Assembly (NCBI RefSeq): GCF_024505165.1
Contig: NZ_JANIBK010000021.1
Span: forward strand, 1 to 44,436
Source of the DNA: Methylomonas rivi
GTDB taxonomy: Bacteria > Pseudomonadota > Gammaproteobacteria > Methylococcales > Methylomonadaceae
Direction of reading: 5' to 3'
DNA: 44,436 bases
Shown in pieces: positions 231 to 33,045 of the stretch. The translations under genes were made by a program, and so were the position numbers. Each line of letters opens with the position of its first letter. Position 1 is the stretch's first letter. Below the pieces are notes generated by a model that saw nothing but the letters and a program-made list of their open reading frames with translations, had not been told where the DNA came from and did no database searches.

Positions 231-253
231 GATATGTTATATTGTAACAATTA
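231..253 (+). promoter_or_regulatory. Zur-box-like operator
   Basis: The site reads GATATGTTATA, then one T, then TGTAACAATTA. Against the gammaproteobacterial Zur consensus (half-sites GAAATGTTATA and TATAACATTTC around one base) it matches 10 of 11 and 8 of 11 positions. It lies upstream of a same-strand run of zinc-homeostasis paralogues, which is where a Zur operator is expected. Repression when zinc is plentiful and release on zinc depletion is inference from the family. Confidence 0.7.
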
Positions 254-271: not shown

Positions 272-545
272 ATGCTTTACCGCAACCCATAAATAATGGG
301 ATAGCAGGAATTTACAGAGGCAAATGACCTACATGTTTGATTGCATATCCAAAACGAAGGCCAATCTGTTTACAACAAAGATCGTATTCAGCTTCCTTCT
401 TACTGTGCAAGGTTTGTCCGAAACCAGTCCCTGCCGTAAGCGAAACCAGACTTTAAATTCTGTAAGTTACCCTGCTAACCAAGATGTAGTCATAGGCCGA
501 CTAAATCTTAGTTACAACCAATAAAAGTTTTAACATAGCATTGCA

Positions 546-893
546 ATGACATTGATTCCGAATCAGACACTCTCCGGCAAACTGCCCGTCACCGTGCTTT
601 CCGGCTCTCTCAGTGCCGGCAAAACCATGTTGCTCAAACATATTCTCGGCAACCGCGATAACCGTCGACTAGCAGTCATAGTCAACGACATGAGCGAAGT
701 CAACATCGACGCCGCATCGGTTAAAAACGAGGTGCAATTGAATCGCGGCCAGGAAAAACAGCTCGAAATGAGCAACGGCTGCATTTGCCGCACCCTCCGC
801 GAGGACTTGCCGACCGATGCCGAATTGGTGGCCGGCCCGGACGCCTGGCGCAACTACCGGGATGATTTTCCGCAATGGTTTGCCGATGGCTAG
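546..893 (+). pseudogene. Internally deleted COG0523 (G3E) zinc-chaperone GTPase
   Basis: This 115-codon frame joins the two ends of a COG0523 GTPase. Residues 1-87 match the usual N-terminus, with the [12 protein letters not shown] and EMSNGCIC blocks. Directly after LREDL the frame jumps to the [13 protein letters not shown] block, which normally ends a protein of roughly 400 residues. The GTPase core and most of the C-terminal domain, around 280 residues, are missing. Two hallmark motifs are also altered: the P-loop reads GSLSAGKTM instead of GFLGAGKTT, and the metal-binding CxCC motif reads CICR. Deletion plus degenerate motifs argues for decay. A selected mini-protein is possible but unsupported. 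The start has no clear ribosome-binding site. The next frame begins inside its stop region, so it may still couple translation. Confidence 0.8.
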
Positions 894-1131
894 CATCGAC
901 ACCTACTTGCACATCATCGGTATCGAGTTGTTGGCGATGCTGGCCATCGTGCAGGCGTTGATCGATGCGGGTAAAACCAAGCGAGCCTTATCCAGACTGT
1001 TTCTGACTGTACTCGGTTTTATGCTCGCGCATTTCGCCGCGCACATATTGCCCAACACCCTCGCCGAATTTATCTACAGCTCGCGCCACGAATATCACTC
1101 GGTCAAACCCTTCGCATTACATCGAACATGA
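886..1131 (+). CDS. Small hydrophobic membrane protein in the zinc locus
   Basis: This is an 81-residue protein of unknown family. I start it at the ATG at 886, which overlaps the stop of the deleted GTPase (891-893). Its own stop overlaps the ATG of the ZIP gene (1128) by 4 bp, so it appears translationally coupled on both sides. Residues about 8-27 and 36-55 are hydrophobic enough to span the membrane, with a basic loop (KTKR) between. The C-terminal tail contains a His-rich HEYH stretch. A role as an accessory subunit of zinc uptake is only suggested by position. The frame is open further upstream, but that part overlaps the GTPase remnant and looks non-coding. Confidence 0.5.
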
Positions 1132-1914
1132 CGATTGCTTTAACCACCCTGGCCGGCACCATCGCTGCCTGTCTCGCCGTCAGCTTGTGCTCGCTGTCGA
1201 GTGCGATTGCGCTTTGGCTAAAAACCGAGACTTTAAAATGGCTGGTACCCAATCTGGTGGCCCTGGCTGTCGGCGTACTGCTGGGCGATGCCTTCATTCA
1301 TCTGATTCCCGATGCCATTCAACGCCATGGCGCGGTCAGCGAGGTCTGTCTGACTGTGCTGATCGGCATGTTTGTTTTTTTCGTGTTGGAAAAAGGCGTG
1401 CGCTGGCGACACGACCACAATGTCGACTGCAGCCCAACGGCCGATCACATTTTGCCCCTGGCGAAAATGAATCTGATCGGCGACGCCATGCACAACTTTG
1501 TCGACGGCATTTTGATCGCCGGCAGTTTTCTGGCCGATCCGGTCATGGGGCTAACTACCACGCTGGCCATCGTCGCCCACGAAATTCCGCAAGAGTTGGG
1601 CGACGTCGGCGCACTGCTGCGCGGAGGTTATTCGCCACGGCAAGCAGTGCTCTACAAACTTTTACTGCTCGCTGAGCGTGTTGCCTGGGGCGATATTTAC
1701 CTTGCTGCTCAGTCAGGCCGCCGAATCTTCCTTGATCGTGTTGCTGCCGATAGCCGCCGGCGGCTTCATCTACATCGCCGCTTCCGACCTGATCCCCGTG
1801 TTGCACGAGCGTTCCAGCCTGGCCCATCTCGGCGGTCAAAGCGCGGCTTTTGCCTCGGGCATAGTTTTCATGCAATTCATTGTTTTTTTCGAACAAGCCT
1901 TACTGGCTGCCTAA
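1128..1914 (+). pseudogene. ZIP-family zinc transporter, frameshifted
   Basis: This encodes a ZIP metal transporter of about 261 residues that would import zinc across the inner membrane. The first 176 residues carry the family signatures: HNFVDG (122-127) on transmembrane helix 4 and HEIPQE (151-156) on helix 5, both metal-site motifs, plus a His-bearing cytoplasmic loop near 95-108. At the AAA run 1656-1658 the frame changes. Removing one A restores the helix 6-8 sequence in the downstream frame (LYNFYCSLSVLPGAIFTLLL and on to the stop at 1912-1914). As given, the first frame runs on into the DUF1826 gene, which happens to be in phase. Either a real inactivating insertion or a sequencing error explains this; the rest of the gene looks intact, which favours a recent event. 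Confidence 0.85.
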
Positions 1915-1925
1915 GGAGTTTTTCA

Positions 1926-2642
1926 ATGTTCGCCCGTGTTCCATTTCGTCAACCTGACATTGCATCATCCCTCATTGCCGGCGGATTTCGACCGCTATTC
2001 AACCCCTCGGCAACCAGGACCGTCATCTCCAATCAGTTCGCCGATTTGTCGCGCATTTATGAAGACGGCGTCAATCTGTGCCTGATCGAACGGCCGTTAC
2101 CTGCCGCTATAGAGCAATTCGTCTATCGGGCTGTGCAGGATGCCGGCCGCGTTGAGATTAGCCAGCCGGTCGATCAGCTGCATTTCGACTTCAATCGCTT
2201 ATGGCCAAACGCAGCTCAACTGCCCGGCTATCACCTTTGGCTGGAGGATGTAGAGATGCTGGTCTCGGCGTTCTGCGAATTGTTCGACCGCCGTGAAGCC
2301 GGTTTGCGCCTGCGTACATTGGATAAAGCCATGTGCCCGCGTTTTCACGTCGACCGGGTGCCGGCGCGAATGATCTGCAGTTACGGCGGCATCGGTACTG
2401 AATGGTTGCCTGAATATGCGCTCAATCGCCATAAACTGGGCATGGGCGGCTGTGGCCAACCCGATGCCGAATCCGGTTTGATTGCCGATCCGACCGCAAT
2501 CCGGCAAATGCCGGCTTACGCGGTGGGGCTGATGAAGGGCGAAAACTGGGAAGGCAATGAAGGCCACGGCCTGGTGCACCGCTCGCCGCAACCCACCGCC
2601 GTGCAACCGCGACGTCTGTTGTTGACCCTGGACATGTTGTAA
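1926..2642 (+). CDS. DUF1826 family protein
   Basis: This 238-residue protein resembles the DUF1826 family, which is found beside COG0523 GTPases and zinc transporters. The C-terminal half holds the conserved block CPRFHVDRVPAR followed by SYGGIGTEWLP (about residues 139-165). Its Cys, His and Asp residues could bind metal, but the biochemical function is unknown. I chose the ATG at 1926 because AAGGAG lies 8 bp upstream, directly after the ZIP stop. The open frame extends further upstream only because the frameshifted ZIP frame is in phase with it. The next gene starts 10 bp after its stop. A role in zinc homeostasis is inferred from neighbours. Confidence 0.8.
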   Translation: MFARVPFRQPDIASSLIAGGFRPLFNPSATRTVISNQFADLSRIYEDGVNLCLIERPLPAAIEQFVYRAVQDAGRVEISQPVDQLHFDFNRLWPNAAQLPGYHLWLEDVEMLVSAFCELFDRREAGLRLRTLDKAMCPRFHVDRVPARMICSYGGIGTEWLPEYALNRHKLGMGGCGQPDAESGLIADPTAIRQMPAYAVGLMKGENWEGNEGHGLVHRSPQPTAVQPRRLLLTLDML

Positions 2643-2652
2643 GGACACGGAT

Positions 2653-4362
2653 TTGCTGATCAAGTTGAGTGGCGGGCAAATTTTCGATCCCGCGCAAAAT
2701 CTGCATGGCGAACAACGCGACCTGTTCATCCGTGACGGCTTGATAATAACCAATCCCGGTCCGGACGCTCGCTTCGACACCGTTTACGACCTATCCGGCC
2801 AAATCGTGATGGCCGGCGCGGTGGATATCCATAGCCATATCGCCGGCGGCAACGTCAACACCGCGCGCATGCTGTTGCCGGAGCAACACCGCAACCACAT
2901 GGCGCGCCGCTTAAACCAGCCGTTTTCCACCGCCAAATGGTCCAGTACCGACACCGGCTACCGCTACGCCCGGATGGGTTACACCACCGTGGTCGAGCCG
3001 GCCATGCTGCCGGTCAACGCGTTGGACGTGCACCTGCAAATGGCCGACATCCCAATCATCGACACCGCCGCGCTGGAGATTCTGGGCAACGACGACTTGC
3101 TGCTGCGGCTGATGCGGGCCAAGGCCGGCCAAAACCAAATCAACGATTACGTGGCCTGGACCCTAAACGCCACCCGCGCGCTGGGTTTGAAAGTCATCAA
3201 CGCCGGCGGGGCCAATGCGTTTAAAAGCAACGTGCGCCAATTCGATCTGGACGACATCGTGCCGGATTACGGCGTCAGTTCCCGGCAAATTCTGCAAACC
3301 CTGCAAACCGCCGCTTGCCAGCTCGGCGTGCCGCACCCGGTGCATGTCCATTGCAACAACTTAGGCATTCCCGGCAACGTCGAGACCATCGTAGCCACCA
3401 TGGAAGCCGCGCAAGGCCTGCCGATGCATCTGGCCCACGTGCAGTTTTATGCTTACGGCAACGAGGGCGCCAAGGGCTTTTCTTCGGCGGCCGCGCGATT
3501 ATTGGAAGCTTTCAACCGCCACCCCAACATCACCATGGATGTCGGCCAAGTGCTGTTCGGCCAGACCGTGACCATCTCCGGCGATGTGATTGCCCAATAC
3601 AGCCGTCACGGCGACGCCAGCCCCAACAAGTGGATGATGTGGGACGCCGAATGCGAAGGTTCCGGCGGCGTGGTGCCGTATCGCTATCGCGAAGCCAGCT
3701 TCGTCAACACGCTGCAATGGGCGATTGGTTTGGAGTTGTTTTTACTGGCCGAAGCCCCGGAGCGGCTGTTTTTCACCACCGATCATCCCAACGGTGCACC
3801 GTTCACGGCTTATCCGGAATTGATCCGGCTGCTGATGGACGCCGATTATCGGCAAGCTTGCATGGCCCGGCTGAATCAGGAGGCATTGGCCTTAACCCTG
3901 TTGCCGAACCTAACCCGAGAATTTAGCTTGAGCGAAATCGCCACCATGACCCGTTTCGCCGCCGCGCGCTTGCTGGGCTTGCGCGACCGAGGTCATCTCG
4001 CCCCCGGCGGCATTGCCGACATCGCTGTATACGACCCACAGGGCTGTGGGAAGTGCGGCAAAACGCCGGGAGCGTTTGTTGCCCAACCGCAAGCCGACTA
4101 TCGAGCCATGTTCGCCGATGCCGCCTTGGTGTTCAAAAGCGGCCACTTGGTAGTCAAAGACGGCGAAGTCATTGCTAGGCCGACCGGTAATGCTCACACC
4201 GTTCAGCCCAATTTCGACCCGCGCATCCAACGCGATATTCAAAACCATTTCGACCGCTTTTACAGCCTGAAATTAAACAACTTCAAAGTCGACGATGTCG
4301 CTTTTAGCGTCGAAGATAGCCAGCGTTTCCGCAACGTCGACGTGAATCAATCAACCAATTAA
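2653..4362 (+). CDS. fhcA: Formylmethanofuran dehydrogenase/hydrolase subunit A (FhcA/FwdA) paralogue
   Basis: This 569-residue amidohydrolase matches FhcA/FwdA over its full length. In methylotrophs FhcA is the subunit of the Fhc complex that hydrolyses formyl-methylofuran to formate in the methanopterin C1 pathway. The binuclear metal-site residues of the family can be picked out: H60 and H62 (DIHSH), a candidate carboxylated lysine K180 (LGLKVINAGG), H231/H233 (PVHVHCNN), H259/H262 (MHLAHVQFY) and D377 (TTDHPNGAP). The C-terminal FDRFYSLKLNNFKVDDVAF tail also fits the family. It starts with TTG at 2653, and thrS follows after 2 bp. Partner subunits FhcB, C and D are absent here, and it sits in a zinc-starvation operon, so I infer a second copy. 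A diverged amidohydrolase with another substrate is the alternative. Confidence 0.85.
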   Translation: MLIKLSGGQIFDPAQNLHGEQRDLFIRDGLIITNPGPDARFDTVYDLSGQIVMAGAVDIHSHIAGGNVNTARMLLPEQHRNHMARRLNQPFSTAKWSSTDTGYRYARMGYTTVVEPAMLPVNALDVHLQMADIPIIDTAALEILGNDDLLLRLMRAKAGQNQINDYVAWTLNATRALGLKVINAGGANAFKSNVRQFDLDDIVPDYGVSSRQILQTLQTAACQLGVPHPVHVHCNNLGIPGNVETIVATMEAAQGLPMHLAHVQFYAYGNEGAKGFSSAAARLLEAFNRHPNITMDVGQVLFGQTVTISGDVIAQYSRHGDASPNKWMMWDAECEGSGGVVPYRYREASFVNTLQWAIGLELFLLAEAPERLFFTTDHPNGAPFTAYPELIRLLMDADYRQACMARLNQEALALTLLPNLTREFSLSEIATMTRFAAARLLGLRDRGHLAPGGIADIAVYDPQGCGKCGKTPGAFVAQPQADYRAMFADAALVFKSGHLVVKDGEVIARPTGNAHTVQPNFDPRIQRDIQNHFDRFYSLKLNNFKVDDVAFSVEDSQRFRNVDVNQSTN

Positions 4363-4364
4363 CC

Positions 4365-6149
4365 ATGACTTCCTCAGCAGACCAAACCGAAGACTCTCTC
4401 GACACCTTACGCCACGATACCGCGCACCTGATGGCCCAAGCCGTCAAGGAACTCTATCCTGATACGCAAGTAGCCATTGGTCCGGCTATCGAAAACGGCT
4501 TTTATTACGATTTTGCCTTTGCCGAACCGTTATCCGTCGACGCCTTGCTCGTCATCGAACAACGCATGCGCGACATCGTCGAGCGTGCCGACCCTATCAC
4601 CCGCGAACAATGGAGCCGGGAACAGGCGATTGCCTTTTTCAGTCAGTGCAACGAGTGTTTCAAGCTGAAACTGATCACCCGTATTCCCGAACATGAGACT
4701 ATCTCCGTCTACCGACAAGGGCAATTTACCGACCTGTGTCGTGGCCCGCACGGTGCGGATACCGGGCAAATTGGACTAGCCTTCAAACTGCTCAAATTGA
4801 CCGGCGCCTATTGGCAAGGCGATCACACGCAGCCCATGCTGCAGCGTATCTACGGCACGGTGTGGCCGACACAAACCGAGCTGGATTGCCATCTCAAGCA
4901 ATTGGGGGAAGCGGAATTACGCGACCATCGTCGCCTGGGCAGAGAGATGGACTTGTTTCATTTTCAGGAACAGGCACCCGGCTCGGTCTTCTGGCATGCC
5001 AAAGGCTGGCGATTGTTTCAGCGCTTGATCGGTTATTTGCGGCAACGGCAGACGGCGGCGGGCTATCAGGAAATCAATACGCCGGACGTGATGGACATTG
5101 GCCTGTGGCAGGCCTCCGGGCACTGGGAGAAATTCGGCGAACACATGTTTACCACCCAAACCCCGGATGAGCGGGTGTTTGCGCTGAAGCCGATGAACTG
5201 CCCCGGCGGCGTGCAGGTATTCAAACAAGGCCTGCGAAGCTATCGGCAATTGCCACTGCGGTTGGCGGAATTCGGCAAGGTGCATCGTTACGAGCCGTCA
5301 TGCGCCTTGCACGGCTTGATGCGGGTGCGGTCTTTTACCCAGGACGATGCGCATATCTTTTGCAGCGAGCAGCAAATCACTCAAGAAAGCCTGGCCATCT
5401 GCGAGCTGATTTTAAGCATCTATCGCGACTTCGGCTTTCACGACATTCGCATAAAATTTTCCGACCGGCCGGCGCAACGGGTGGGTGGCGATGCGGTTTG
5501 GGATCAGGCCGAGCAGGCCTTGATTCAAGCCATGCAAACCAGCGGACTGCCGTATACGCATAACCCCGGCGAAGGCGCGTTTTACGGACCGAAACTGGAA
5601 TTTGTGCTGCGCGATGCGATGGGCCGCGATTGGCAGTGCGGCACCTTGCAAGTCGACCTCAATCTGCCGGACCGTCTGGGAGCCAGCTATATCGACGCCG
5701 ACGGCAACAAGCAAACCCCGGTGATGCTGCATCGAGCCTTGTTCGGCTCCCTGGAACGCTTTACCGGTATCTTGCTGGAGCATTACGCCGGTTGGCTGCC
5801 GTTCTGGCTAGCGCCACTGCAAGTCGTGGTCGCGCCCATCAGCGAACAAACCGAAACCTATGCGCTGGAAGTTGCCGAGCAATTAAACAGCGCCGGTTTG
5901 ACGGTGGAAACCGACTTACGCAACGAAAAAATCGGCTACAAGATCCGCGAACACAGTTTGGCCAAAGTGCCGCTGCTGATCGTGGTCGGCCAGCGGGAAA
6001 TGCAAGACGGCCATGTCACGCTGCGCTGGTTGCACGGCGGTCACCAGCAAACCTTGCCGTTGGCGCAAGCCCTGATCGAACTGGCCGCGCAAAACCGCTA
6101 CCCGTCTTCCCTACACACCATTGACTCACGACACGTTGAAAATCGATGA
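4365..6149 (+). CDS. thrS: Threonyl-tRNA synthetase paralogue lacking the TGS domain
   Basis: This class II synthetase charges tRNA-Thr in the cytoplasm. It is 594 residues, shorter than the usual roughly 640, because it begins directly at the editing domain and has no N-terminal TGS domain. The editing motifs HDTAH (HxxxH) and CRGPH (CxxxH) are present. The catalytic zinc ligands are all kept: Cys in MNCPGG, His in DDAHIF and His in MLHRALFGS. The usual MNCPGH reads MNCPGG, one change next to the zinc Cys. The ATG at 4365 is 2 bp after fhcA, and the stop overlaps queD by 4 bp. ThrRS duplicates are known members of zinc-responsive regulons, so this is probably the stress copy. Whether another thrS exists cannot be seen here. 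Confidence 0.93.
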   Translation: MTSSADQTEDSLDTLRHDTAHLMAQAVKELYPDTQVAIGPAIENGFYYDFAFAEPLSVDALLVIEQRMRDIVERADPITREQWSREQAIAFFSQCNECFKLKLITRIPEHETISVYRQGQFTDLCRGPHGADTGQIGLAFKLLKLTGAYWQGDHTQPMLQRIYGTVWPTQTELDCHLKQLGEAELRDHRRLGREMDLFHFQEQAPGSVFWHAKGWRLFQRLIGYLRQRQTAAGYQEINTPDVMDIGLWQASGHWEKFGEHMFTTQTPDERVFALKPMNCPGGVQVFKQGLRSYRQLPLRLAEFGKVHRYEPSCALHGLMRVRSFTQDDAHIFCSEQQITQESLAICELILSIYRDFGFHDIRIKFSDRPAQRVGGDAVWDQAEQALIQAMQTSGLPYTHNPGEGAFYGPKLEFVLRDAMGRDWQCGTLQVDLNLPDRLGASYIDADGNKQTPVMLHRALFGSLERFTGILLEHYAGWLPFWLAPLQVVVAPISEQTETYALEVAEQLNSAGLTVETDLRNEKIGYKIREHSLAKVPLLIVVGQREMQDGHVTLRWLHGGHQQTLPLAQALIELAAQNRYPSSLHTIDSRHVENR

Positions 6150-6559
6150 CAATAACTGAACAAACCCCGTCCACCTGCGGCCTCTATACCCTGAAAGTTC
6201 ACGCGCAATTTTGCTCCGCCCATGCCTTGCGCGAATATCCCGGCGATTGCCGTCGCCTGCATGGGCATAACTGGAAAGTCGAAACCGAAGTACAAGCCAA
6301 GGTGCTGGATGACATTGGTATCGCCATCGACTTCAAAGCCATCAAGGCCGCGACCCGACAACTGGCGGATAGTCTGGATCATCGGTTTTTGAACGACATC
6401 AAGCCCTTCGACCGCATCAACCCCACCGCAGAGAATTTGGCGGCCTGGTTTTACCGCCAACTATCGGCCACCCTGAACAGCGCGCATGTCAAAGTTGCTG
6501 CCGTCACACTATGGGAAACCGACAACGCCTGCGTGCGTTACAGCGAGGTGGCCGCATGA
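6146..6559 (+). CDS. queD: 6-carboxy-5,6,7,8-tetrahydropterin synthase (QueD)
   Basis: This 137-residue protein belongs to the QueD/PTPS family, which converts dihydroneopterin triphosphate to 6-carboxytetrahydropterin in queuosine synthesis. The zinc ligands are H26 (CSAHAL), H39 and H41 (LHGH). The catalytic Cys is C35, in the CxxxHGH spacing (C35, H39) typical of QueD rather than eukaryotic PTPS. It overlaps thrS and folE2 by 4 bp each. FolE2 downstream would supply its substrate. QueD paralogues are known from Zur-associated clusters, so this may be a zinc-stress duplicate. The zinc site is complete, so it is not a zinc-free replacement. Confidence 0.92.
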
Positions 6560-7368
6560 ACATCAGCGCCATCGAAGACATTCAAGGCCGCGCCGACAGC
6601 CGCCGCATCGCCATCGACAAAGTCGGCATCAAGGACATCCTGCACCCGGTGCGGGTTAAGGACAAGAGCTGCGGCGAACAACATACCGTCGCCCGCTTTG
6701 ATATGTACGTGAATTTGCCACATGATTTCAAGGGCACGCATATGTCGCGCTTCGTCGAAATATTGAATAGCCATGACCGGGAGATCAGCATCGCCTCATT
6801 CCCGGTCATGTTGCAAGAAATGCTGTCCCGGCTGGAAGCCGAATCCGGTTATATCGACATGCGCTTTCCGTACTTCGTCGACAAGGCCGCGCCGGTCAGC
6901 GGCGTGCGTAGTCTGCTGGATTATCAGGTCAGCTTCATCGGCGAAATCGACAGTACCGGCTGCCGGATCAAAGTCAAAATCGTGGTGCCTGTCACCAGCC
7001 TGTGCCCGTGTTCCAAGGAAATTTCAGAGCGTGGTGCCCACAACCAGCGCTCGCATGTGACGATTACCGTGTCGGCCAGCGAATTTATCTGGATTGAAGA
7101 ACTGATCGCGCTGGTGGAAGCCGAAGCCTCGTCACCGATCTATGGGTTGCTGAAACGCCCGGATGAAAAATACGTCACCGAATATGCCTATGATCACCCC
7201 AAGTTCGTCGAAGACATGGTCCGCGACGTGGCCGCCAGATTGGAGGCGGAGCCCCGCATCGCCGCCTATTCCGTGGAATCGGAAAACTTCGAGTCTATAC
7301 ACAACCATTCCGCCTACGCATTAATCGAACGCGACAAACGACAAATCCAGTCGCAAGGAAACTTATGA
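6556..7368 (+). CDS. folE2: GTP cyclohydrolase FolE2 (type IB)
   Basis: FolE2 makes 7,8-dihydroneopterin triphosphate from GTP, the first step to folate and queuosine. It does not need zinc, unlike FolE. The protein is 270 residues and contains the family block [14 protein letters not shown] with the metal-binding Cys, and the acidic active-site region after [12 protein letters not shown] use the ATG at 6556, which overlaps the queD stop, rather than the longer frame from 6511 that runs inside queD. Its stop overlaps the next gene by 4 bp. The window also holds the zinc-dependent FolE at 32500-33045, so a zinc-sparing substitution is the natural reading. Relatives in archaea (MptA) serve methanopterin synthesis, a less likely role here. 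Confidence 0.93.
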
Positions 7369-8354
7369 ACCGCATTCTCAACTTCCCGGTGCCAGTCACC
7401 ATTCTGACCGGCTTTCTCGGTGCCGGTAAAACCACCTTACTGAACCGCATTCTGACCGAACACCACGGCCGCCGTATTGCGGTGATCGAAAACGAATTCG
7501 GCGAAACCGGCATCGATAACGAACTACTGGTGCAGGCCGACGAGCAAATCGTGACCATGAACAACGGTTGCATTTGCTGTACGGTGCGCGGCGACCTGGT
7601 GCGCATCCTTGGCGAATTGTCCGACCGCCGCGAAAATGGCGACATTCACTTCGAACGGGTCATCATCGAAACCACCGGCCTGGCCGATCCGGCGCCGGTG
7701 GCGCAAACCTTTTTCATCGAGCAGGACATCGCCGAAAACTATAAGCTGGATGCCATCGTCACCGTGGTCGACGCGGTACATGCTCATCAACAATTGCAAG
7801 AACACCACGAAGCGCAAGAACAAGTGGGGTTTGCCGATCGCATCCTGTTGTCGAAAACGGATTTGCAGGAAGCCGAAGTGATCGCCGATCTGGAAACACG
7901 ACTGCGGACCATGAACCCCAGAGCACCGATCAAACGCGTGCATTTTGGCGCAACCGAGCTGAGTGACATTCTGGACATCGACGGCTTCAACCTGGACGAT
8001 ATACTGAAAATCGAACCGGACTTTTTGGAGGACGTCAGCCACGAGCATGAAGACGACATCAGTTCATTTGTATTTCGCACCGACAGGGAGCTGGATGCTG
8101 CGCGCATACTCGCATTTCTGGACATCATGGTTCGCGACTATGGTAACGACCTGTTGCGCTATAAAGGTATTTTGAATATCGCCGGCTGCGACAAGCGTGT
8201 CATCTACCAAGGCGTACACATGCTGATGACGCAGGATTTTGGCGCCCCCTGGCAAGACGGCGAAGCCAAGGCATCAAGCCTAGTGTTCATAGGCCGCAAT
8301 TTGCCCAAACAGGATATGCTGGAGGCCTTGGAATCGTGCCAAGTGGCGGCTTGA
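7365..8354 (+). CDS. COG0523 (G3E) GTPase, YjiA/ZigA-like zinc metallochaperone
   Basis: This 329-residue GTPase is intact. The P-loop is GFLGAGKTT (about residues 16-24), the metal motif CICC lies in [14 protein letters not shown], and the specificity motif is SKTD. The C-terminal half ([16 protein letters not shown] through SLVFIGRNL) is the CobW C-terminal domain as in E. coli YjiA. Such proteins are thought to hand zinc to client enzymes under zinc limitation. It closes the 4-bp-overlap gene chain after folE2, which would put client enzymes (ThrRS, QueD, the FhcA paralogue) in the same transcript as their chaperone. Client identity is inference. Its motifs are complete, unlike those of the deleted relative at 546-893. 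Confidence 0.92.
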
Positions 8355-8742: not shown

Positions 8743-9018
8743 ATGATTAATGAAGTAAATGCTGTTGCTTTTCGGCAAAATCTAGGGGAAATGTTGAATC
8801 AAGTTCAATACCGGCATGATTCAATTTTAATCAAAAAGGACGGGAAACCAGTGGCGGCACTGGTCGATGCGCAATTATTCGATCGAATTCGCCGTTTCAA
8901 AGATCGATTTGATCAATTAAGTCAACAAATGGCCGATGCTTTTGCAAACGTGCCTCAAGAGGAAGGGCTAAATGAAATTGATGCCATAGTTTCAGAGACT
9001 AGGCGTTCTCAATTTTAG
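8743..9018 (+). CDS. Phd/YefM-family antitoxin
   Basis: This 91-residue protein has the Phd/YefM pattern: an N-terminal MINEVNAVAFRQNLGEMLNQV DNA-binding and dimerisation segment, then KKDGKPVAALVDAQLFDRI, then a charged helical tail (about residues 46-91) that would wrap and inhibit the toxin. It would also bind its own promoter, where direct repeats are present. The PIN toxin gene begins 2 bp after its stop, the usual antitoxin-first order. Confidence 0.85.
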   Translation: MINEVNAVAFRQNLGEMLNQVQYRHDSILIKKDGKPVAALVDAQLFDRIRRFKDRFDQLSQQMADAFANVPQEEGLNEIDAIVSETRRSQF

Positions 9019-9020
9019 CT

Positions 9021-9437
9021 ATGACGCAAATTTACATTGTCCTCGATACCAACGTTTTGCTTTCCGGCACCGCCTATCCCAACTCGATACCGGGCAAAAT
9101 CGTTTCCGCTTGGCGAAACGGAAGCCTGGAAGTTGTTCTTTCCCAATATATCTTGGATGAATTGCAGCGGGTTTTACCGCGGCTCAATCACCGTCTTGCT
9201 TGGTCAAGTGTCGAAATTCGCGACTTTGTCGATAGCCTGACTTTCCTTGCCGATCTGGTCGACCCGGTGGAAACAGCCGAGCCTGCACTCCGCGATAGTG
9301 CCGACCAACCCGTACTGGGGACTTTTCTGGCTGCAAAAGCCAATTACCTTGTTACCGGCGACAAGGACTTATTAGCCCTATCCGCGCACTATCCCATCGT
9401 TACCCCGGCCCATTTTTGGCAATTGCATGGCGGATGA
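9021..9437 (+). CDS. PIN-domain ribonuclease toxin
   Basis: This 138-residue protein belongs to the PIN toxin family of COG1569 type. Candidate metal-binding acidic residues are D9 (VLDTN), E47 (ILDELQ), D95 (RDSADQPV) and D114/D116 (TGDKDLL). PIN toxins cleave RNA with Mg2+ or Mn2+. It follows the antitoxin after 2 bp. The giant nuclease-STAND gene starts 48 bp downstream on the same strand with no terminator in between, so the three genes may share a transcript. The RNA target is unknown. Confidence 0.85.
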   Translation: MTQIYIVLDTNVLLSGTAYPNSIPGKIVSAWRNGSLEVVLSQYILDELQRVLPRLNHRLAWSSVEIRDFVDSLTFLADLVDPVETAEPALRDSADQPVLGTFLAAKANYLVTGDKDLLALSAHYPIVTPAHFWQLHGG

Positions 9438-32499: not shown

Positions 32500-33045
32500 T
32501 TATTTGCGATTGATCAGATTCAAAAATTCGGAACGGGTGCTGATCTCTTCGCGAAAGATGCCCAGCATGACGGAAGTCGTCATCACCGAGTTTTGTTTTT
32601 CCACGCCGCGCATCATCATGCACAAATGCTTGGCTTCGATGACCACGGCCACCCCGCGGGCGTCGATGGCGGTTTCCACCGCCGTGGCGATCTGGCGGGT
32701 CAATTGCTCTTGGATCTGCAAACGGCGGCCATACATATCCACAATTCGCGCCAGCTTGGACAAACCCAACACTTTGCCCTGCGGCAAGTAACCGATATGG
32801 CATTTGCCGATAAACGGCAACAAATGGTGCTCGCACAAGGAATACAACTCGATATCCTTGACGATTACCATATCTTCGGTATCGGCCTGAAAAATAGCCC
32901 CATTCAGCACTTCTTCCAGGGTTTTTTCATAGCCGTTATTCAGAAATTTAAAGGCTTTGGCCGCCCGCTTCGGCGTATCGCGCAAACCCTCACGATTGAC
33001 GTCTTCACCTATTGCTTGAATGATTTTGGAGAAATATTCTTCCAT
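32500..33045 (-). CDS. folE: GTP cyclohydrolase I (zinc-dependent)
   Basis: This is the classical type IA enzyme that turns GTP into dihydroneopterin triphosphate for folate. The 181-residue protein keeps the zinc site: Cys and His in LCEHHLLP and the second Cys in KHLCMMMRG. Its presence beside the FolE2 of the zinc locus in one window supports a housekeeping/zinc-stress pair. It sits 6 bp before hemH and 39 bp after dusA. Confidence 0.97.

Follow-up and report, generated by a model that had tools for sequence, protein, structure and literature searches.

Near one end of the window, by which we mean the whole stretch of 44,436 nucleotides from Methylomonas rivi that was analysed, an operon on the forward strand carries, in order, a ZigA remnant, ZIP, DUF1826, FhcA2, ThrS, QueD, FolE2 and COG0523. 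The features are as follows.

231..253, no strand: Zur-like operator, palindrome GAAATGTTATA-N-TATAACATTTC, 18/22 consensus positions
522..544, no strand: weaker Zur-like match (16/22), possibly fortuitous, 1 bp upstream of the ZigA remnant
546..893, + strand: ZigA-type COG0523 remnant with its middle deleted (N-terminal 88 aa, then the last 28 aa)
1128..1912 (right end estimated), + strand: ZIP zinc transporter gene whose reading frame is lost from about 1670 on, through either disruption or an error in the draft assembly
1926..2642, + strand: DUF1826 protein (Pfam/NCBIfam, 223 bits)
2653..4362, + strand: FhcA2, zinc-cluster paralogue of formyltransferase/hydrolase subunit A (TIGR03121, 6s6y match, ligand alignment)
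4365..6149, + strand: second threonyl-tRNA synthetase (ThrS), without the N-terminal part of the main copy (Pfam/NCBIfam)
6146..6559, + strand: second QueD, 6-carboxytetrahydropterin synthase (Pfam/NCBIfam)
6556..7368, + strand: FolE2, zinc-independent GTP cyclohydrolase (Pfam/NCBIfam)
7365..8354, + strand: COG0523/CobW GTPase, putative zinc chaperone (Pfam/NCBIfam)

The gene designated fhcA2 is an open reading frame (2653-4362, +) of 569 aa with a TTG start in the open reading frame listing. Its stop codon lies two bases ahead of the thrS ATG at 4365, and the genes for ThrS, QueD and FolE2 run four bases into the gene that follows each of them, given start codons chosen by hand. Matches to Pfam and NCBIfam bear out the position given in the initial annotation, between DUF1826 and thrS/queD/folE2/COG0523 and 2 bp from thrS. 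Its description of a full-length FhcA-like gene with apparently complete metal ligands also stands: the candidate ligands are present, and the protein matches TIGR03121, 'formylmethanofuran dehydrogenase subunit A', over residues 3-551 with 661 bits, above the curated NCBIfam cut-off of 393. The closest solved structure by sequence is 6s6y chain A (E 5.6e-146), which we take to be FhcA from Methylorubrum extorquens; homology extends over the whole length, with the same candidate ligands and the shared motifs HVHCNNLG and HSHIAGGNV.

Two genes upstream of fhcA2 are damaged or appear so. The two pieces of the ZigA remnant show 84% and 89% identity to the genome's intact ZigA, which is encoded on another contig (C46) and has a Zur-like box of its own. 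Past the break in the ZIP frame near 1670, the open frame reads stop-free into DUF1826, a family named in published Zur clusters (PMC2770081, Fig. 4 legend). About 400 bp 3' of the operon (8743-9437) lie a gene for a Phd/YefM-type antitoxin and then a PIN-domain gene.

The genome also holds primary copies of the spare enzymes in the operon. A second fhcA within an fhcABCD-type cluster, for which the initial annotation had recommended a search, is encoded on contig C54 (7633-9246; TIGR03121, 785 bits) in an fhcBADC cluster whose four genes each score above the NCBIfam cut-off; the window gene is not the sole fhcA. This ordinary protein (FhcA1) and FhcA2 are 51% identical, and fhcD is present in a single copy. 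The main ThrS (contig C92) is 53% identical to the operon copy and the main QueD (contig C59) 32%, while FolE1 is encoded inside the window at 32512-33045.

Zur-like boxes

The Zur-like site that had been claimed upstream of the operon corresponds to the palindrome at 231-253, which is to be read as a consensus match only, the consensus being the proteobacterial one printed in the available text of PMC4219657. When the first 14 kb were resampled 100 times under a first-order Markov model, its score was never reached (p 0.010). Throughout the 4.52 Mb genome (382 contigs), a Zur core with at most two mismatches occurs at three sites: this one, one before the full-length ZigA gene and one before a gene for an exported-type protein. 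With three mismatches, the pattern occurs at six places vs ten in a reversed control that has no split by mismatch number; because the three-mismatch sites do not exceed this control, only sites with at most two mismatches were used.

The exported-type protein (L156:1554-2306, contig C238) has a perfect Zur palindrome core less than 100 bp upstream. By eye it is PEP-CTERM-like, it has no NCBIfam match, and homologues with 56-63% identity lie within the zinc clusters of L041, L042, L043 and L045. It is possibly an extracellular zinc-handling protein.

In 31 of the 41 zinc loci, a Zur-like box outscores Markov resamplings of the same locus (p at most 0.05), although in some of these the best box is not directly 5' of the cluster; in the controls, the same was seen at one of six fhcB loci and at none of four loci in islands of cys and bio genes. 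The best box lies behind the cluster in L042 and about 420-450 bp before ZigA in L044 and L095. No box above chance was found in the other ten zinc loci (L033, L036, L038, L039, L046, L050, L051, L101, L102 and L115). Five more, mostly truncated and outside the resampling set (L032, L103, L104, L107 and L116), have a best box of 13/22, four of them being on contigs of 3.9-10.5 kb and L116 being broken by mobile genes.

Recurrence and phylogeny of FhcA2

When the window protein was compared with 311 genomes of its order, 65 places in 62 genomes scored at least 788 bits and the next listed place scored 655, a clear gap that indicates two kinds of protein. The distribution is patchy, and 62 of 311 is a lower bound, since broken or partial copies could score under 788. 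The cultured Methylomonas sp. LW13 (L038) is among those with the copy in a zinc cluster. At least two FhcA matches are present in 57 of the 62 carriers, a few of which may be fragments of one gene. The five carriers with one match only (G124, G037, G038, G045 and G230) are 70-95% complete and three of them have fhcD; within the fetched 18 kb, G124 and G230 show fhcD and fhcC without fhcB, and in G045 the contig ends. Sampling of the class (369 genomes) revealed six genomes beyond the order scoring 688-741 bits, two of which (G671 and G429) proved to carry members of the FhcA2 clade described below, while in the other four (G365, G394, G517 and G556) FhcB adjoins and the protein clusters with ordinary FhcA. 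In a sample of the phylum (299 genomes), FhcA was detected at E 1e-60 in 14 and nothing exceeded 609 bits except the window's own genome.

Recurrence of the neighbourhood in related genomes, on which the initial annotation had let its proposal depend, was apparent when the two kinds of locus were compared within 21 genomes, chosen since the places of both copies could be fetched. FhcA2 loci contain DUF1826 (20 of 21), FolE2 (19), ZigA (18), COG0523 (18), ZIP (16) and a TonB receptor (15), and none contains FhcB, C or D. All 21 FhcA1 loci, in contrast, have FhcB, D and C, and none has a zinc marker. A best Zur-like box of at least 16/22, counted anywhere in the locus, occurs in 18 of 21 FhcA2 loci vs 0 of 21 FhcA1 loci. 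The FhcA2 gene is directly flanked by COG0523 genes in loci of the Methylobacter/Crenothrix type.

Two FhcA2 genes, at L195 (L012) and L116, are near-identical (dS 0.005), with the two genomes (G100 and G295) classified in separate families of the order; this reflects either recent transfer or contamination. At L116, recurring pairs of a reverse-transcriptase and an IS66-transposase gene interrupt the cluster.

For phylogenetic analysis, three FhcA rows with fewer than 500 aligned residues were dropped and identical sequences merged, reducing 143 rows to 106. In the resulting tree, 59 rows (FhcA2) fall on one side of a branch; within the flanking sequence available, at least one zinc-cluster gene accompanies 54 of these, and FhcB, C or D accompanies none. 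A more careful tree, built from 46 rows picked by hand out of the 106, recovered FhcA2 as a single clade (support 99/96; united in 98% of 200 bootstraps), in agreement with the expectation that copies from zinc neighbourhoods would group apart. The clade is gammaproteobacterial and distinct, and it extends to a Methylophaga metagenome-assembled genome (MAG).

Zinc features accompany the three earliest members. In G429 (L083), Zur-like boxes precede a HisI gene by about 110 bp; in G671 (L078), a lone FhcA2 gene has a Zur-like box 62 bp upstream (p 0.059 over the 19.5 kb locus); and in the Methylophaga MAG (L054), COG0523 adjoins, with no box found on the short contig. The zinc link therefore seems to date from the origin of the clade, although the G429 row is long-branched.

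The five FhcA2 rows without a zinc-cluster gene are L078 and four island rows, L086 (L047), L087, L089 (L048) and L114 (L055), which form a subclade nested inside the FhcA2 clade. These four lie among or beside CysD, CysN, IspG, IlvD, BioA and BioD, together with DUF6671, and have no Zur-like box above resamplings; L047 also has a type I ABC exporter and an HlyD-like protein. Another IspG is encoded elsewhere in the G062 genome. The island genes may together encode reserve isozymes for use under some stress.

Conservation of the FhcA2 protein

The metal-binding His residues of FhcA presumably lie within HxH and HxxH pairs. On this basis, candidate ligands of the window FhcA2 are H60, H62, K180, H231/H233, H259/H262 and D377, positions that are invariant in all 106 FhcA rows (59/59 FhcA2 and 47/47 FhcA1). 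They can account for the ligand set of the two-metal site described in the available text of PMC11656701, namely four His, one Asp and one (carboxy)Lys. The loss of zinc ligands that marks zinc-independent replacements of the FolE2 or DksA2 kind was not observed, and with the candidate ligands unchanged no sign of zinc independence is visible in the sequence.

Beyond the ligands, 105 positions show the same residue in at least 97% of FhcA1 rows, and FhcA2 keeps 101 of them in at least 90% of its own. Leave-out controls put this in proportion: FhcA2 keeps 131 of 148 positions vs 102 of 148 in nine alphaproteobacterial FhcA, and 104 of 110 vs 102 of 110 in four early gammaproteobacterial FhcA. 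Fourteen positions carry a residue that almost all FhcA2 rows share and few FhcA1 rows have. Pairwise dN/dS was 0.04-0.18 in 14 of 15 FhcA2 pairs, the fifteenth (0.32) being a near-identical pair with a dS of 0.005; three pairs of ordinary FhcA gave 0.04-0.11. FhcA2 is under purifying selection. The kept residues and low dN/dS together argue for a functional enzyme that probably remains compatible with the partners of FhcA1, although its fit to FhcB, C and D is not assured because about half of its residues differ from those of its own FhcA1.

Three sequence features were considered as marks of adaptation and set aside. A CxxC loop near residue 465, a candidate extra zinc site, is an insertion in some Methylomonas-type rows with unconserved cysteines. 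The motif HVHCNNLG, which lies close to the metal and reads HVHGCNLG in the FhcA1 of the same genome, is not specific to FhcA2: its letters recur in FhcA1 rows (C in 10/47, N in 12/47) and in the 6s6y chain. All 47 FhcA1 rows have E at position 129, and 56 of the 59 FhcA2 rows have Q there; the three earliest FhcA2 members keep E, and the E129Q change is a lead only, not a defining one.

Proposed role of FhcA2 under zinc starvation

The A subunits of these complexes carry a two-metal amidohydrolase site (PMC11656701), and Fhc produces formate from formyl-H4MPT, with methylofuran as carrier (PMC8141765). We consider it likely, on grounds of sequence and gene context, that FhcA2 serves as a spare catalytic subunit under Zur control, taking the place of FhcA in Fhc during zinc starvation. 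Zinc-loaded Zur would repress fhcA2 and zinc shortage would switch it on, together with the spare ThrS, QueD, FolE2 and the COG0523 GTPase. Where the ordinary FhcA is left unfilled by its two zinc ions, FhcA2 would join the ordinary FhcB, FhcC and FhcD instead and continue to release formate from formyl-methylofuran by hydrolysis, which would sustain formaldehyde oxidation and the energy supply. The two-metal site is probably retained, because the ligands are unchanged, and would probably be filled either with another divalent metal or with assistance from the COG0523 GTPases encoded nearby. We infer three of these steps, namely induction when zinc is short, entry of FhcA2 into Fhc and metal loading. 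The initial annotation had likewise proposed a spare FhcA inducible when zinc is scarce, and paralogy, recurrence, a clade of its own and the Zur-like boxes all lend support to it. The pattern suggests that many methane-oxidising bacteria keep a backup FhcA with which to continue oxidising methane under such conditions.

A stronger version is conceivable, though we hold it only tentatively: Fhc may be metal-switchable, with FhcA2 exchanged in under zinc starvation and loaded by COG0523 with scarce zinc or another metal, so that zinc supply would directly gate the formate-producing step of aerobic methane oxidation. The flanking of FhcA2 by COG0523 genes in Methylobacter/Crenothrix-type loci fits loading by these proteins, which the initial annotation had suggested beside a possibly tighter metal affinity, and does not show it.

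Among other readings, FhcA2 could be an ordinary zinc enzyme that raises the amount of FhcA and so the share that is filled with zinc. Haas et al. (PMC2770081, available text) suggest dosage for paralogues with intact sites, and in FhcA2 the candidate ligands are intact, as are 101 of 105 invariant residues. An identity of just 51%, with 14 near-fixed positions, nevertheless exceeds what extra dosage needs, and we regard this reading as unlikely. Rather less probable is a separate amidohydrolase working outside Fhc on some other formamide-like substrate, for instance one tied to pterin or queuosine. Such an enzyme would suit the separation from fhcB, C and D (0/59 rows) and the adjoining FolE2 and QueD, seen in the window and in many loci, but would hardly be expected to keep the residues invariant in FhcA1 as FhcA2 does, including in both leave-out controls, or to occur mostly in genomes with at least a second FhcA match (57/62 carriers, a few matches perhaps being gene pieces). 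That FhcA2 is a general stress isozyme, placed in zinc clusters by chance and with zinc as one trigger among several, is very improbable: the four island rows without a Zur-like box and the second IspG copy in G062 are in its favour, but zinc-cluster neighbours occur in 54 of 59 rows and the island subclade branches from inside the FhcA2 clade.

Read as a spare catalytic subunit, FhcA2 joins a known class. Haas et al. (2009, PMC2770081) list nine families of Zur-regulated zinc-enzyme paralogues, namely HisI, PyrC, Cam, HemB, CysRS, ThrRS, AmiA, QueD and DksA. Like these, FhcA2 is a second copy of a zinc enzyme accompanied by COG0523, FolE2 and DUF1826 behind a Zur-like box; unlike them, it belongs to C1 energy metabolism. 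The nearest parallel is the PyrC paralogue (dihydroorotase), likewise a two-metal amidohydrolase duplicated in a zinc regulon, but PyrC has lost its zinc ligands (PMC2770081, available text), whereas FhcA2 has kept the candidate ligands. From the ordinary FhcA it differs in its Zur-type operon, its separation from FhcB, C and D and its own gammaproteobacterial clade.

Spare zinc enzymes under Zur control are thus already known, but FhcA as such a paralogue was not found in the literature searched. It is absent from the nine-family list of PMC2770081, and the word formylmethanofuran is absent from the available text of that paper, as it is from those of the Zur reviews and the ZepA paper. In the open-access literature, which takes in few subscription journals, no paper combined formylmethanofuran with 'zinc uptake regulator' or FolE2, or 'formylmethanofuran dehydrogenase subunit A' with zinc and paralog; formylmethanofuran and COG0523 occur together in one paper, a selenium review. 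A search for expression data on zinc depletion likewise came up empty, and a transcriptome paper contained none of the terms sought.

If the proposal is right, a main energy-pathway enzyme of methane oxidisers would join the enzymes that are backed up against zinc shortage, and, alongside copper and lanthanides, zinc would become a candidate control on methane oxidation. With FhcA1 and FhcA2 present in a single cell, there would also be a natural pair for asking what role the COG0523 GTPases play and by what means a two-metal amidohydrolase copes with zinc scarcity while its ligands stay unchanged. At one locus (L084:9399-9482), a 28-aa near-copy of the end of FhcA1 lies directly behind the gene.
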